From Actinomyces dentalis DSM 19115 (lineage in GTDB: Bacteria > Actinomycetota > Actinomycetes > Actinomycetales > Actinomycetaceae), in the NCBI RefSeq assembly GCF_000429225.1, contig NZ_KE386866.1:8748-42711 (forward strand): a stretch of DNA of 33,964 nt, read 5' to 3'. The translations under genes and the position numbers were made by a program. Below, piece by piece: positions 14,011 through 17,896 of the stretch. A model generated the notes under the pieces. That model had not been told where the DNA came from. It saw nothing but the letters and a program-made list of their open reading frames with translations, and made no database searches. Numbering within the stretch: position 1 is the stretch's first letter; every line of letters starts with the position of its first letter.

Positions 14011-15660
14011 ATGGCTTCGTCGTTCCAGAACTCTCTCGCCGTCCTGGCGAAGGCGCGCTTCCCCGTCCTGTACGTGGAGACCTTCGAGGAGCGGCGGGCC
14101 CTGGCCGCGATCCGGTCGACCATGGAGGGCGGGATGCTCTCGATGCCCCGGCCCATTCACACGTGGAGCATCACCACCGGCTTCGTGGACCCGGAGGGCA
14201 GGGCGAGCCCGGGAACGACGGATCCGTTGCGCGCGCTCGACGCCGCCCTGCGCGTCGACCGGGCCGCCACCTTCGTCTTCTTCGACCTTCACGCCCACCT
14301 GGGGGACGGGGCCCGCCCCGCCGACCCGGCGATCGTCCGCAAGCTGCGCGAGCTGGCCGCGGACTTCCAGAACGGGCCCCTGGCGCGCACGCTCATTATC
14401 GTGGCGCCGGCCCTGAGGATCCCCCCGGAGCTCGAGAAGGACGTCCACATCCTCGACTTCCCGCTGCCCGACGAGACCGCGATCCGCCGGATCCTCGACA
14501 ATCTCATCGCCGCCAACGCCGGGAACAGCCGCCTGCGGATCGACCTGACCGAGATCGACAAGGACCGCCTGGTGCGCGCCTCCCTGGGCCTGACCGAGAC
14601 GGAGGCCGAGGGCGCGCTCGCCCTGGCCATGGCCTCGGACGGCGTCCTGAGCGCCGACGACGTGAACACGGTGCTGCAGGAGAAGAAGCAGGCGGTGCGC
14701 AAGAGCGGGCTGCTGGAGTACGTCGACACCAATATCGACCTGACCGGGGTGGGCGGCCTGGACAATCTCAAGCGCTGGTTGCGCCGTCGGGACAACTCCT
14801 GGCTGGCGGAGGCCGCGGAGTACGGGATTCCGGCGCCGCGCGGCGTGCTCATCACGGGCGTGCCCGGCTGCGGCAAGTCCCTCACCGCCAAGGCCGTCGC
14901 GGCCTCGTGGCGCCTGCCTCTGCTGCGCATGGACATCGGCAAGGTGTTCTCCGGCGTCGTGGGTTCGAGCGAGTCCAACCTGCGCACGGCGATCCGCTCC
15001 GCCGAGGCCGCCGCCCCCGCCGTCCTGTGGGTCGACGAGATCGAGAAGGGCTTCTCCGGCGTGGGCGCCACGGGGGATTCGGGCACCGCCTCGCGCGTCT
15101 TCGGCAGCTTCCTCACCTGGATGCAGGAGAAGACCGCCCCCGTCTTCGTCATCGCCACGTCGAACAATGTTCAGTCCCTTCCGCCCGAGCTGCTGCGCAA
15201 GGGGCGCTTCGACGAGATCTTCTTCGCCGACCTGCCCGCACCCGACGAGCGCGCGCAGATCTGGGAGCTGCACGTGCGCAAGCACATCCATGCGGCCCCG
15301 CGCCACGCCGGCTTCGTATTCGACGACGCCCTGCGCGCCGATCTGGTCCTGGCCACGGAGGGGTTCTCGGGGGCGGAGATCGAGCAGGCCGTCATCGCGG
15401 GCCTGTTCGACGCCTTCTCCGAGCGCCGCGACATCACCGGGGACGATCTGCGCCTGGCGGTGGAGCGGTCGGTGCCCCTGAGCGTCACCCAGGCGGAGTC
15501 CCTGGCCGCTCTGCGCGCCTGGGCGGGCGAGCGGGCCGTATCGGCCAGCGACAACCGTGTGGAGACATCCCCGCACGCGCCCGACCCGATGATGGCCCCC
15601 GCGGGGGTAGATTCGAGTCGGGCCCGTTACGCGCCGGCCGGCAGGCGGGTCGAGTTCTGA
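14011..15660 (+). CDS. Ycf46-like AAA+ ATPase
   Basis: A 549-residue protein with the plan of the plastid/cyanobacterial Ycf46 family: an N-terminal divergent NTPase-like region (about 1-150, starting with [14 protein letters not shown]) and a C-terminal classical AAA+ module. The AAA+ module has Walker A GVPGCGKS (Lys289), Walker [10 protein letters not shown] (Asp342, Glu343), sensor 1 IATSNN and an arginine-finger region [11 protein letters not shown]. The stretch [14 protein letters not shown]...VGSSES is characteristic of Ycf46. The last 40 residues look disordered. ATG 14011 (GAAAGG nine bases before) is preferred to GTG 14005. It heads a five-gene operon. In cyanobacteria a Ycf46 protein has been linked to inorganic-carbon use, but no mechanism is established; here it is probably a remodelling ATPase for the proteins encoded downstream. 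Confidence 0.88.
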
Positions 15661-15683
15661 AGAGGTTGACGAGGAGCGAGCCC

Positions 15684-16139
15684 ATGAGCCTGTCACTGGT
15701 TCTGATCCCCCTATCGATCGCCGTGGCCGCGGCGTCCCAGGCCCGCCAGATCCGCCCCTCCGACGTCGAGGCGGGCAACGAGGTGCGCGTCGAGTCCCGG
15801 ATGCGCGACGAGACGCTGCTCGTCGCGGCCCTCGAGGATCTCGGCGCCGCGGTGAGCCGGACGGGCGACGGCGTGCTCCTGGCCAAGACGCCCGACCGCG
15901 CCCTGACCATGAGGCGGGACGCCGCCGGACTGTGGAACGCCTGCTTCGCCGGGACGTGGACGCCCGACGGCGCCCGCGCCTTCGTCGAGGACCTGGACCG
16001 CGCCTACGGCCTGCAGGTGCAGCGGGCCGTCATCCGGCGCCTGGAGGAGCGCGCCCCCGAGGCGGGCATGCGCATCACGTCGCAGAGTGTCGACGACGAC
16101 CGCGTCGTCACCCTCGTCATGGAGGTCGAGCGAGCATGA
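15684..16139 (+). CDS. DUF1257-like (Ycf35-like) protein
   Basis: A 151-residue protein. The first 20 residues are hydrophobic (LVLIPLSIAVAAAS), a likely membrane anchor. The rest looks like the DUF1257/Ycf35 fold: conflicting-length helices around VESRMRDETLLVAALEDLG, then the WNACFAGTWTPDGARAFVEDLDRAYG segment and a terminal strand VVTLVMEVE. This family commonly sits beside Ycf46-like AAA ATPases and DUF2997 proteins; I recognise it from pattern and context, not from a search. ATG 15684 follows GAGGAG. The gene's TGA overlaps the next gene's ATG. Function unknown. Confidence 0.6.
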   Translation: MSLSLVLIPLSIAVAAASQARQIRPSDVEAGNEVRVESRMRDETLLVAALEDLGAAVSRTGDGVLLAKTPDRALTMRRDAAGLWNACFAGTWTPDGARAFVEDLDRAYGLQVQRAVIRRLEERAPEAGMRITSQSVDDDRVVTLVMEVERA

Positions 16140-16387: not shown

Positions 16388-17270
16388 CAGAATCGACGTT
16401 CTCGTCGACCAGAAGCCGTTCACGTGGAAGCTCGTGAATTCCTTGTGGATCGCACCCATCATCATCGGTATGGGATTGTTCTCCCTTATCGGATGGCTGT
16501 GGGCCGGAATTCTGGCGAGGTCCCCGAAGGTCTGGCGCATTGTCACTGTTTGGGGGGTCGTCGTCGCCCTGTCATTTATTTCAATCGCCCTGGGCGAGGA
16601 CAAGGACTCCGCCTGGAAGACCCTGGGCGGGACTCTCTTCATAATCTCCTGGTTCGGCTCCTTCGCCCACGCCCTCATCATACGGGGCACCGTCCTGAGG
16701 GAAATCGTGTCCCGCGAGGACGAGCTCGCCCGCCTCCGCGCCCTATACGGCACCCATCAGGTCCCGAGCCGTTCCACGACGGCGCGGGCGCCGGTCGACG
16801 ATCGCCTATCCCAACGGATCCCATCCCACGACCCGCTGCCCCCCGAGCTCGAGGTCGATACGAGTCAGTACTACGAGCAGTCGCCTCCCCGTACCGCGTG
16901 GGCGCCGCCGTCGGCTGCGACGCGGTCCCCGTACGCACCGCCGGCGTCGACCCCCGCCGAGTCGCGGTCCTCGTCCGCGCCGGCGGCGTCGGCACCCGCG
17001 CCGTCGTCGGCGATCCCCTCGGAGCCCGCCCTCGTCGACGTGAATACGGCCCCGTCCGCGGTCCTCCTCGCCCTGCCCGCGCTCGACCAGGCCGCCGTCG
17101 AGCGGATTGTCGCCGCGCGCGAGGAGCGTGGCGGTTTCCACGACCTCAACGACCTCACCTCGGCGGCGGCGCTCCAGCCCCACCAGCTCGTCGCCCTCCA
17201 GGACCGGGTGTCCTTCAGCCGGTTCAGGCGCCCCGGCACTCAGGTGCACGGCCGCATTCTGGATCTGTGA
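16377..17270 (+). CDS. Two-helix membrane protein with C-terminal helix-hairpin-helix
   Basis: A 297-residue protein. The TTG start at 16377 is chosen because GGGAGGG lies eight bases upstream; it overlaps the previous gene by 11 bases. Two to three hydrophobic segments lie at about 20-45, 55-75 and 85-105, followed by a charged helix (about 107-125), a long disordered Ser/Pro/Ala region (about 130-220) and a helix-hairpin-helix domain (about 222-285; VDVNTAPSAVLLALPALDQA, RGGFHDLNDL), as in ComEA. HhH domains bind DNA backbones or act as protein-docking modules. A membrane-tethered HhH in this operon suggests docking at the membrane. Not known in the core Ycf46 cluster as far as I know, so possibly a lineage-specific part. 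Confidence 0.8.
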   Translation: MALDRIDVLVDQKPFTWKLVNSLWIAPIIIGMGLFSLIGWLWAGILARSPKVWRIVTVWGVVVALSFISIALGEDKDSAWKTLGGTLFIISWFGSFAHALIIRGTVLREIVSREDELARLRALYGTHQVPSRSTTARAPVDDRLSQRIPSHDPLPPELEVDTSQYYEQSPPRTAWAPPSAATRSPYAPPASTPAESRSSSAPAASAPAPSSAIPSEPALVDVNTAPSAVLLALPALDQAAVERIVAAREERGGFHDLNDLTSAAALQPHQLVALQDRVSFSRFRRPGTQVHGRILDL

Positions 17271-17896
17271 CCCGGCAGTCCGTGCGGGTCGCCCGTTTCA
17301 TCGCCCGGACCGGGGCGGAGGGCCCCGGCACCCGCTCGGCGCTGTGGGTCCAGGGCTGCACCCTCCGCTGCCCCGGCTGCTTCAACCCCCACCTGTGGGG
17401 CGTCCGCGGCGGCCGCATGACGGCGCCGGAGCGGATCGCCGCAGATATTCCCCTCGACGTCGAGGGCCTGACCCTTCTGGGCGGCGAGCCCTTCGAGCAG
17501 CCCGGCGCCCTCGCCGAGCTGGCGCGGCTCGTCCGGGCCCGCGGGCAGACGGTCATGACCTTCACCGGCTACGAGCTCGACGAGCTCCGCTGCGCCGCCT
17601 CGCCCGCCGTCGCCGACCTCCTGAATCACACCGACCTGCTCGTCGACGGGCGCTTCGAGGTCGACCGCCTCGACACCGCCAGGCCATGGGTCGGATCCAC
17701 CAACCAGCGCTTCCACGCCCTGACCGACCGCTACGCCGAGCTCGTCGATCGACTCACCGCTCTGCCCGACCGCCTCGAGATCCGCGTCGCCCCCGACGGG
17801 CGCGTCGACGTCAACGGGTGGAGCGACACGGCCTCGCTCGAGACCCTGCTCGACGGCCTGCGACGACGCCCTCCCCCGGCGGCCCGGCCCCGGTGA
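17267..17896 (+). CDS. Small radical SAM protein, NrdG-like (4Fe-4S)
   Basis: A 209-residue radical SAM protein of the single-cluster, activating-enzyme type. The cluster motif CTLRCPGC is CX3CX2C (Cys31, Cys35, Cys38), preceded by WVQG as in NrdG. A GGEPFEQP motif for SAM binding follows at about residues 72-79. Length is slightly above NrdG (about 155-200), with a C-terminal extension (VAPDGRVDVNGW). No anaerobic ribonucleotide reductase gene is nearby, so activation of NrdD is unlikely to be its role. GTG 17267 overlaps the upstream stop as GTGA. It is the last gene of the AAA+ operon and may modify, or insert a radical into, one of the partner proteins; this is inference. Confidence 0.85.
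   Translation: MTRQSVRVARFIARTGAEGPGTRSALWVQGCTLRCPGCFNPHLWGVRGGRMTAPERIAADIPLDVEGLTLLGGEPFEQPGALAELARLVRARGQTVMTFTGYELDELRCAASPAVADLLNHTDLLVDGRFEVDRLDTARPWVGSTNQRFHALTDRYAELVDRLTALPDRLEIRVAPDGRVDVNGWSDTASLETLLDGLRRRPPPAARPR

Follow-up and report, generated by a model that had tools for sequence, protein, structure and literature searches.

Five adjacent genes in a stretch of 33,964 nucleotides from Actinomyces dentalis DSM 19115 (contig NZ_KE386866.1, positions 8,748 to 42,711; the whole stretch is hereafter called the window) form a discrete mobile cassette that encodes a Ycf46-like AAA+ ATPase, a DUF1257 (Ycf35)-like protein, a DUF2997 protein, a membrane protein with a helix-hairpin-helix (HhH) and a small radical SAM protein. 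The ATPase and the HhH protein share a C-terminal tail, and across genomes the radical SAM gene accompanies the HhH gene. We propose, with confidence that is about evenly balanced, that the cassette specifies a membrane-associated remodelling machine with a p97-like AAA+ motor, guided by the tail, for which the HhH protein would be the client and the radical SAM protein an accessory enzyme. The genes lie on a single strand at positions 14011-17896, and the coordinates of the open reading frames (ORFs) agree throughout with the gaps and overlaps given in a preliminary description of this DNA:

14011-15660, + strand: Ycf46-like AAA+ ATPase, 549 aa, Pfam AAA match 8.6e-30, C-terminal tail AGRRVEF
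15684-16139, + strand: DUF1257 (Ycf35)-like protein, 151 aa, N-terminal hydrophobic segment, 23-nt gap after the ATPase gene
16136-16387, + strand: DUF2997 protein, 83 aa, PF11211 match 3.8e-13, conserved Cys36, 4-nt overlap with the DUF1257 gene
16377-17270, + strand: HhH membrane protein, HHH_3 match 7.3e-10, TTG start, 11-nt overlap with the DUF2997 gene
17267-17896, + strand: small radical SAM protein, Fer4_12 match 4.3e-33, CX3CX2C motif, GTG start, 4-nt overlap with the HhH gene

The family labels in that description stand by Pfam for the ATPase, DUF2997 (49.5 bits with PF11211, against a cut-off of 24.1), HhH and radical SAM proteins. The DUF1257 label does not, as PF06868 gives no match at E<=1 to the second gene or anywhere in its genome, and it is on profile-profile comparison only that we call this protein DUF1257-like: its family of 41 homologues aligns with three DUF1257 proteins, one of which matches PF06868 (4.8e-9) while the other two are DUF1257 by annotation, with an hhalign probability of 97.1 (E 5e-11). 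Membership of the ATPase in the Ycf46-like family is borne out by 43 homologues that align over their full length, N-terminal part included, and by a profile that matches 39/39 genomes of one cyanobacterial class, covering at the best places nearly its whole length. The HhH alignment consists of N-terminal transmembrane segments (two such segments in the window protein, by hydropathy), a variable linker, the helix-hairpin-helix and the tail.

When 213 genomes of the family were searched with the second gene, it was found in four, including that of the window, and all three other carriers encode the remaining families, one of them in another gene order. Broader sampling, with one genome taken per species, came from a search with the ATPase alignment, of which the best 80 of at least 550 confirmed candidates were kept; together with the window and L012-L015 they make up a set of 85 loci with the ATPases nearest to that of the window, which does not serve to estimate prevalence. 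The ORFs of these loci were searched iteratively with profiles from the first alignments, radical SAM proteins being counted only below E 1e-20. All five families occur as separate ORFs in 47 loci; 13 have the ATPase and just the two DUF genes, 13 the ATPase alone and 12 other subsets, absences being upper bounds since contig ends cut some of the loci. Among the 47 complete loci the genes are arranged in 12 different orders, and the most frequent neighbour pairs are ATPase-DUF1257 (37), HhH-radical SAM (37) and DUF1257-DUF2997 (31). Constant composition combined with variable order is what functional linkage would lead one to expect, and the earlier suggestion of a single functional unit is upheld by these loci and by the three other carriers in the family. 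That description had allowed for a chance arrangement of unrelated genes should the radical SAM and HhH genes not be conserved beside the ATPase and DUF genes. Subsets do occur (the ATPase/DUF trio alone and the ATPase alone, each in 13/85 loci), but recurrence of all five in 47/85 loci in a dozen orders, an insertion/deletion difference between relatives and copies on plasmids render this explanation next to impossible. Genome G326 encodes DUF1257 and DUF2997 as one continuous ORF of 219 aa (L013:9279-9938; scored as lacking DUF2997 among the 85 loci), which fits an interaction between the two, as interacting proteins are often fused. In a sample of the phylum, DUF2997 was detected in 3/296 genomes, two of them above the cut-off; the match in G034 is on a low-GC contig and is a possible contaminant.

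The boundaries of the cassette are apparent from a comparison of its insertion spot between relatives:

13078-13959, + strand: thiD-like kinase, PF08543 match 9.5e-64, conserved gene to the left of the insertion spot, outside the cassette
13966-17881, no strand: presence/absence segment (the cassette), replaced by 45 nt in genome G329 (blastn)
18046-19818, + strand: AlbA_2/DUF5635 gene, right flank, outside the cassette; adjoins thiD in the cassette-free G329

A long DNA match to thiD is present in 48 of 49 genomes of the genus, G305 having a short match only. In G329, the thiD match (97%) stops at window position 13965 and the next match starts at 17882 (92%); the missing segment, as delimited by blastn, stops 15 nt short of the end of the radical SAM gene. 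The cassette was not found in any of four thiD regions examined. The thiD region of G309 contains a different Ycf46-like ATPase instead (L277:3312-4871; 36% identity to that of the window, ending in GRRVVMRDL), G326 has the cassette likewise after thiD, and a distance of about 2.4 kb separates it from thiD in G311. On a conjugative plasmid of Rhodococcus aetherivorans, the ATPase, DUF1257-like, DUF2997, HhH and radical SAM proteins are encoded in the order of the window, with the families confirmed by profile. Given the absence of approximately 13966-17881 from G329 and this plasmid copy in the same order, the cassette is a discrete mobile unit. The same layout is recognizable by annotation on a conjugative plasmid of Paenarthrobacter sp. 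AT5, where the DUF1257 and HhH places are annotated "hypothetical"; the viral contig L193 contains all five families by profile, and sets of ATPase, DUF1257 and DUF2997 occur in viral contigs and phages. Overall and third-position GC content of the cassette are close to those of the flanks, somewhat lower in the HhH gene, so its arrival was either not very recent or from a similar genome. A direct repeat of 129 nt (94%; 17909-18037 and 19724-19852) flanks the AlbA_2/DUF5635 gene, with which we associate it because a similar repeat is present in the cassette-free G329; it is perhaps the remnant of a tandem copy.

Following a variable linker, the ATPase and HhH alignments each end in a conserved tail, which in the window reads AGRRVEF and HGRILDL, respectively. 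Defined strictly as R.[VILMA][DE][FLIVYWM] at the very C-terminus, the tail is found in 58/86 ATPase and 69/71 HhH ORFs of the 85 loci, compared to 0/67 for DUF1257, 0/63 for DUF2997, 0/60 for radical SAM and 8/5249 for other ORFs of at least 60 aa. For the last three residues, [VILM][DE][FLIVYW], the respective counts are 59/86, 69/71, 6/67, 1/63, 0/60 and 30/5249. One locus encodes seven HhH ORFs (six of 212-233 aa and one of 87 aa), every one of which is tailed. Cyanobacterial Ycf46, read only at the best places (29 loci from 39 genomes), ends in the tripeptide in 22/29 cases, as RLEF or RMEF; two cyanobacterial plasmid ATPases end in LDIRS and LDIRQ. Among 79 viral ATPases, 37 have the relaxed tail (background 107/7474) and 14 the strict one (background 8/7474), and the ORFs beside them show no overall enrichment of the relaxed tail (10/554 near, 61/4515 far).

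Single cases illustrate the variety of these termini. Some viral pairs look matched, for example RRSVLV and GRRILL in L167. In the Streptococcus satellite phage Javan368 (L100), the Ycf46-like ATPase ends in TRKVLV and a nearby 573-aa protein in NRKIKI, which are similar tails in other letters. The Paenibacillus polymyxa plasmid pPPM1a (L105) has, in this order, the ATPase, DUF1257, DUF2997 and radical SAM genes and two hypothetical proteins without a Pfam match, with hydrophobic stretches by eye and the ends SRVIHF and KRVIRL, perhaps a type of client other than HhH. Upstream of a tailed ATPase, a membrane protein with Rhomboid/DUF1751 similarity (L089:8310-8966) ends in RIRRLEL and is a possible client in a version lacking the radical SAM gene.

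If the tail is a docking signal, the DUF1257 and DUF2997 proteins are the likeliest adaptor or receptor for it, because the tail of the ATPase goes with the DUF genes across the 85 loci. With up to three trailing residues allowed, it is present in 62/68 loci with DUF1257/DUF2997 and 1/17 without them; by class, in 51/54 loci with radical SAM and DUF genes, 11/14 with DUF genes only, 1/15 with neither and 0/2 with radical SAM only. Sets of ATPase, DUF1257 and DUF2997 without HhH (L080, L083, L086, L092, L095) have neighbours in common; the families next to HhH-less sets, labelled from a scan of one member each, include those of a type II/IV secretion ATPase (9 loci), of a TPR protein (13 loci) and of a protein with weak likeness to zinc ribbons (5 loci).

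The radical SAM protein has the intact CX3CX2C motif noted from the outset, as does every radical SAM ORF scored at the 56 loci that have one. Its nearest PDB sequence is the pyruvate formate-lyase (PFL)-activating enzyme (4e-11), and it matches the NrdG equivalog model of NCBIfam at 102.6 bits, below the cut-off of 126.1. The genome does encode NrdD, so an activase of ribonucleotide reductase or of another glycyl radical enzyme, placed here by accident, has this model match in its favour; we nevertheless consider it very improbable, since the score is under the cut-off, NrdD is on another contig, in agreement with its reported absence nearby, with a 270-aa radical SAM ORF of its own just downstream, and the radical SAM gene of the cassette has a consistent companion. 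HhH is present in 52/56 loci with a radical SAM gene and in 3/29 without, and over the 47 complete loci the radical SAM gene comes directly after the HhH gene in 37 neighbour pairs. The preliminary description had named the conserved Cys region of DUF2997 as a possible target, which is not supported; the cysteine is indeed invariant (64/64), but it is so with or without a radical SAM gene, and 14 of the 85 loci combine DUF1257/DUF2997 with no such gene. Since radical SAM tracks HhH, and the DUF genes occur without it, the HhH protein appears to be a better candidate partner than DUF2997. A glycine of GGR in the ATPase tails was considered as a glycyl-radical target and rejected as a general one, because the window has AGR and 23/71 HhH tails have E in place of G; GG precedes the tail R of the ATPase in 42/54 loci where radical SAM and DUF genes are both present, compared to 1/14 with DUF genes only. 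On the Treponema succinifaciens plasmid pTRESU01 (L104), a radical SAM gene and an ATPase (tail GVRKLEM) are situated amid genes annotated as VgrG contractile injection/phage baseplate components.

Over its ATPase domain, the AAA+ protein has VCP-like ATPase and p97 as the nearest solved sequences (E 4.7e-73 for VCP-like ATPase). Its Walker A motif, GVPGCGKS, contains a cysteine that is conserved in 43/43 rows of the ATPase alignment and in 29/29 cyanobacterial Ycf46 sequences. In Synechocystis slr0374 (Ycf46), one study gives the reduced fraction of Cys269, located in peptide 260-271, as 91.6% in the light and 78.3% in the dark (PMC13214033); this residue would fit a Walker-A GCGK ending at K271, and a cyanobacterial homologue has its Walker-A cysteine at 271. 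Stress phenotypes described for the cyanobacterial cluster g, DUF2997-DUF1257(ycf35)-fed7 (PMC4284462), and the location of ycf46 in a stress operon (PMC7496141) point toward redox too, and the ATPase is a candidate for redox gating via this cysteine. The membrane setting suggested earlier is supported by simple hydropathy, with at least one transmembrane-like segment in 62/68 HhH proteins and 45/55 DUF1257 homologues; the DUF1257 protein, too, is probably membrane-anchored.

Taken together, these data are compatible with a scheme in which the p97-like motor would remodel the HhH protein or proteins as client, while the common tail would act as a docking signal directing both of them to one receptor, a role in which DUF1257 and DUF2997 may serve. 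The radical SAM enzyme, tied to the HhH client, would probably modify or activate it, and the redox state of the Walker-A cysteine may gate the ATPase. p97 recruits cofactors through its own C-terminal tail. The earlier notion of an AAA+ enzyme that delivers a partner or remodels it is plausible, the HhH protein being the putative partner; radical modification of the tailed client, taken separately, is improbable. A wider generalization, which we regard as unlikely though a little less so, is C-terminal-tripeptide targeting in bacteria, plasmids and phages, where an interchangeable [LIVM]-[DE]-hydrophobic tail on p97-like motors and membrane clients would be read by DUF1257/DUF2997, and where, in the mobile form, the radical SAM enzyme would modify or prime the tailed HhH client. 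If true, this would be a counterpart, in logic and not in ancestry, of targeting by the eukaryotic cytosolic iron-sulfur protein assembly (CIA) machinery, and it would provide a function for plastid Ycf46 and Ycf35. Should the tail prove to be a targeting code, sequence alone could suffice to find clients of Ycf46-like ATPases.

Several observations weigh against this scheme. The ATPase and HhH profiles included the tail columns and may favour tailed members, and counts per locus ignore the kinship of the loci. On a tree of 91 ATPases, the coupling of tail and DUF genes is not significant, with 9 or 4 independent pairs, which are too few. A whole-genome search, which recovered DUF2997 in 5/5 positive controls (tailed loci with DUF2997 in the locus), detected it in 4/15 genomes whose ATPase is tailless. 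Among viral and plasmid ATPases the association is absent or reversed, the tail being present in 3/40 with detected DUF1257/DUF2997 and 19/50 without, and viral tails are more varied. A DNA pattern search of the window's own genome gave 7 tail matches, of which only three end in a true stop codon, versus 9 for the control, and hence no enrichment; the pattern misses the tail of the ATPase itself because its Arg codon is AGG. Finally, the Walker-A cysteine is replaced by threonine in L015 and in the two cyanobacterial plasmid ATPases.

Two further readings would give the cassette a different biological purpose. One is an Fe-S/redox maintenance module, a mobile relative of the Ycf46 and Ycf35-DUF2997-Fed7 genes of cyanobacteria in which the radical SAM protein replaces the ferredoxin. 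The gene arrangement of cluster g (PMC4284462) and the stress operon that holds ycf46 (PMC7496141) agree with it, and so do the [LM]EF tails of 22/29 Ycf46 proteins, which resemble the CIA tripeptide, and a run on the Pseudanabaena plasmid pPg_01 (L103) of GrpE, Hsp70, DUF1257, an ATP-binding protein, DUF2997 and the ATPase, which suggests a chaperone link. The cassette, however, includes no Fe-S assembly gene, cysteine is absent from the window's HhH protein, and the tail likeness is one of motif and not of homology; we consider this reading possible, if rather doubtful.

The other is an anti-phage or inter-element conflict cassette, with the membrane HhH protein as an effector checked or triggered by the ATPase/radical SAM machine. 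Its patchy presence (4/213 genomes of the family), the insertion/deletion at a site that varies and holds a different Ycf46-like ATPase in another relative, the conjugative plasmid copies and the ATPase/DUF1257/DUF2997 sets of viral contigs and phages would all suit such a role. Strong matches to defence models were also obtained among 120 neighbour ORFs (SngB 2.3e-150, MzaA 2.4e-63, RT 3.1e-50, BrxD 3.3e-47), but these stand without a background rate, and Pfam assignments of these neighbours, over the 25 of 98 families listed, are mostly to ordinary genes. PADLOC matches to the five proteins themselves are limited to generic AAA and weak radical SAM similarity, with no system-specific model among them, and a Ycf46-like ATPase that occurs in 39/39 sampled genomes of a cyanobacterial class is unlike a defence gene. 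A defence function seems rather unlikely. Among the closest known systems is the IetAS defence system (AAA plus subtilase), for which the IetA models of PADLOC hit the AAA domain with values up to 7e-21; the match spans the ATPase domain only, and the cassette is without a subtilase.

The component families are known, and so is the core trio, both in cyanobacteria and through the annotation of phages and plasmids; no description of the five-gene set, its mobility or the tail common to motor and client was found in the open literature searched. To our knowledge, no mechanism is attached to Ycf46 and Ycf35, names long in use for plastids and cyanobacteria. The NrdG and PFL activating enzymes resemble the radical SAM protein in the Fer4_12/radical SAM domain, the CX3CX2C motif and the best PDB match, and differ in that the cassette protein scores below the NrdG cut-off, has no glycyl radical enzyme beside it in the cassette and is linked to a membrane HhH protein. 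Unfoldases of the p97/Cdc48/VAT type appear to be the closest relatives of the motor among solved ATPase-domain sequences, a likeness by sequence alone, whereas the cassette ATPase is shorter, has its own N-terminal part and a different tail, and is mobile. In eukaryotes, the targeting complex recognition (TCR) tripeptide, C-terminal [LIM]-[DES]-[WF], guides clients to the CIA machine (PMC10623007); it fits 22/29 cyanobacterial Ycf46 tails and 14/71 HhH tails, a motif resemblance only, for which we claim no homology; here the motor itself is tailed and the client is no known Fe-S protein. Also close are cyanobacterial and plastid Ycf46, together with Ycf35, DUF2997 and Fed7: the ATPase belongs to the same family, with the identical Walker A in 29/29 and the tail tripeptide in 22/29 of the cyanobacterial sequences, and there, too, the DUF1257 and DUF2997 genes neighbour that of an Fe-S protein. 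Cluster g as published (PMC4284462) has the ferredoxin gene fed7, lacks genes for radical SAM and HhH proteins, and does not include ycf46 in its listing, whereas here the families are assembled in one mobile cassette.

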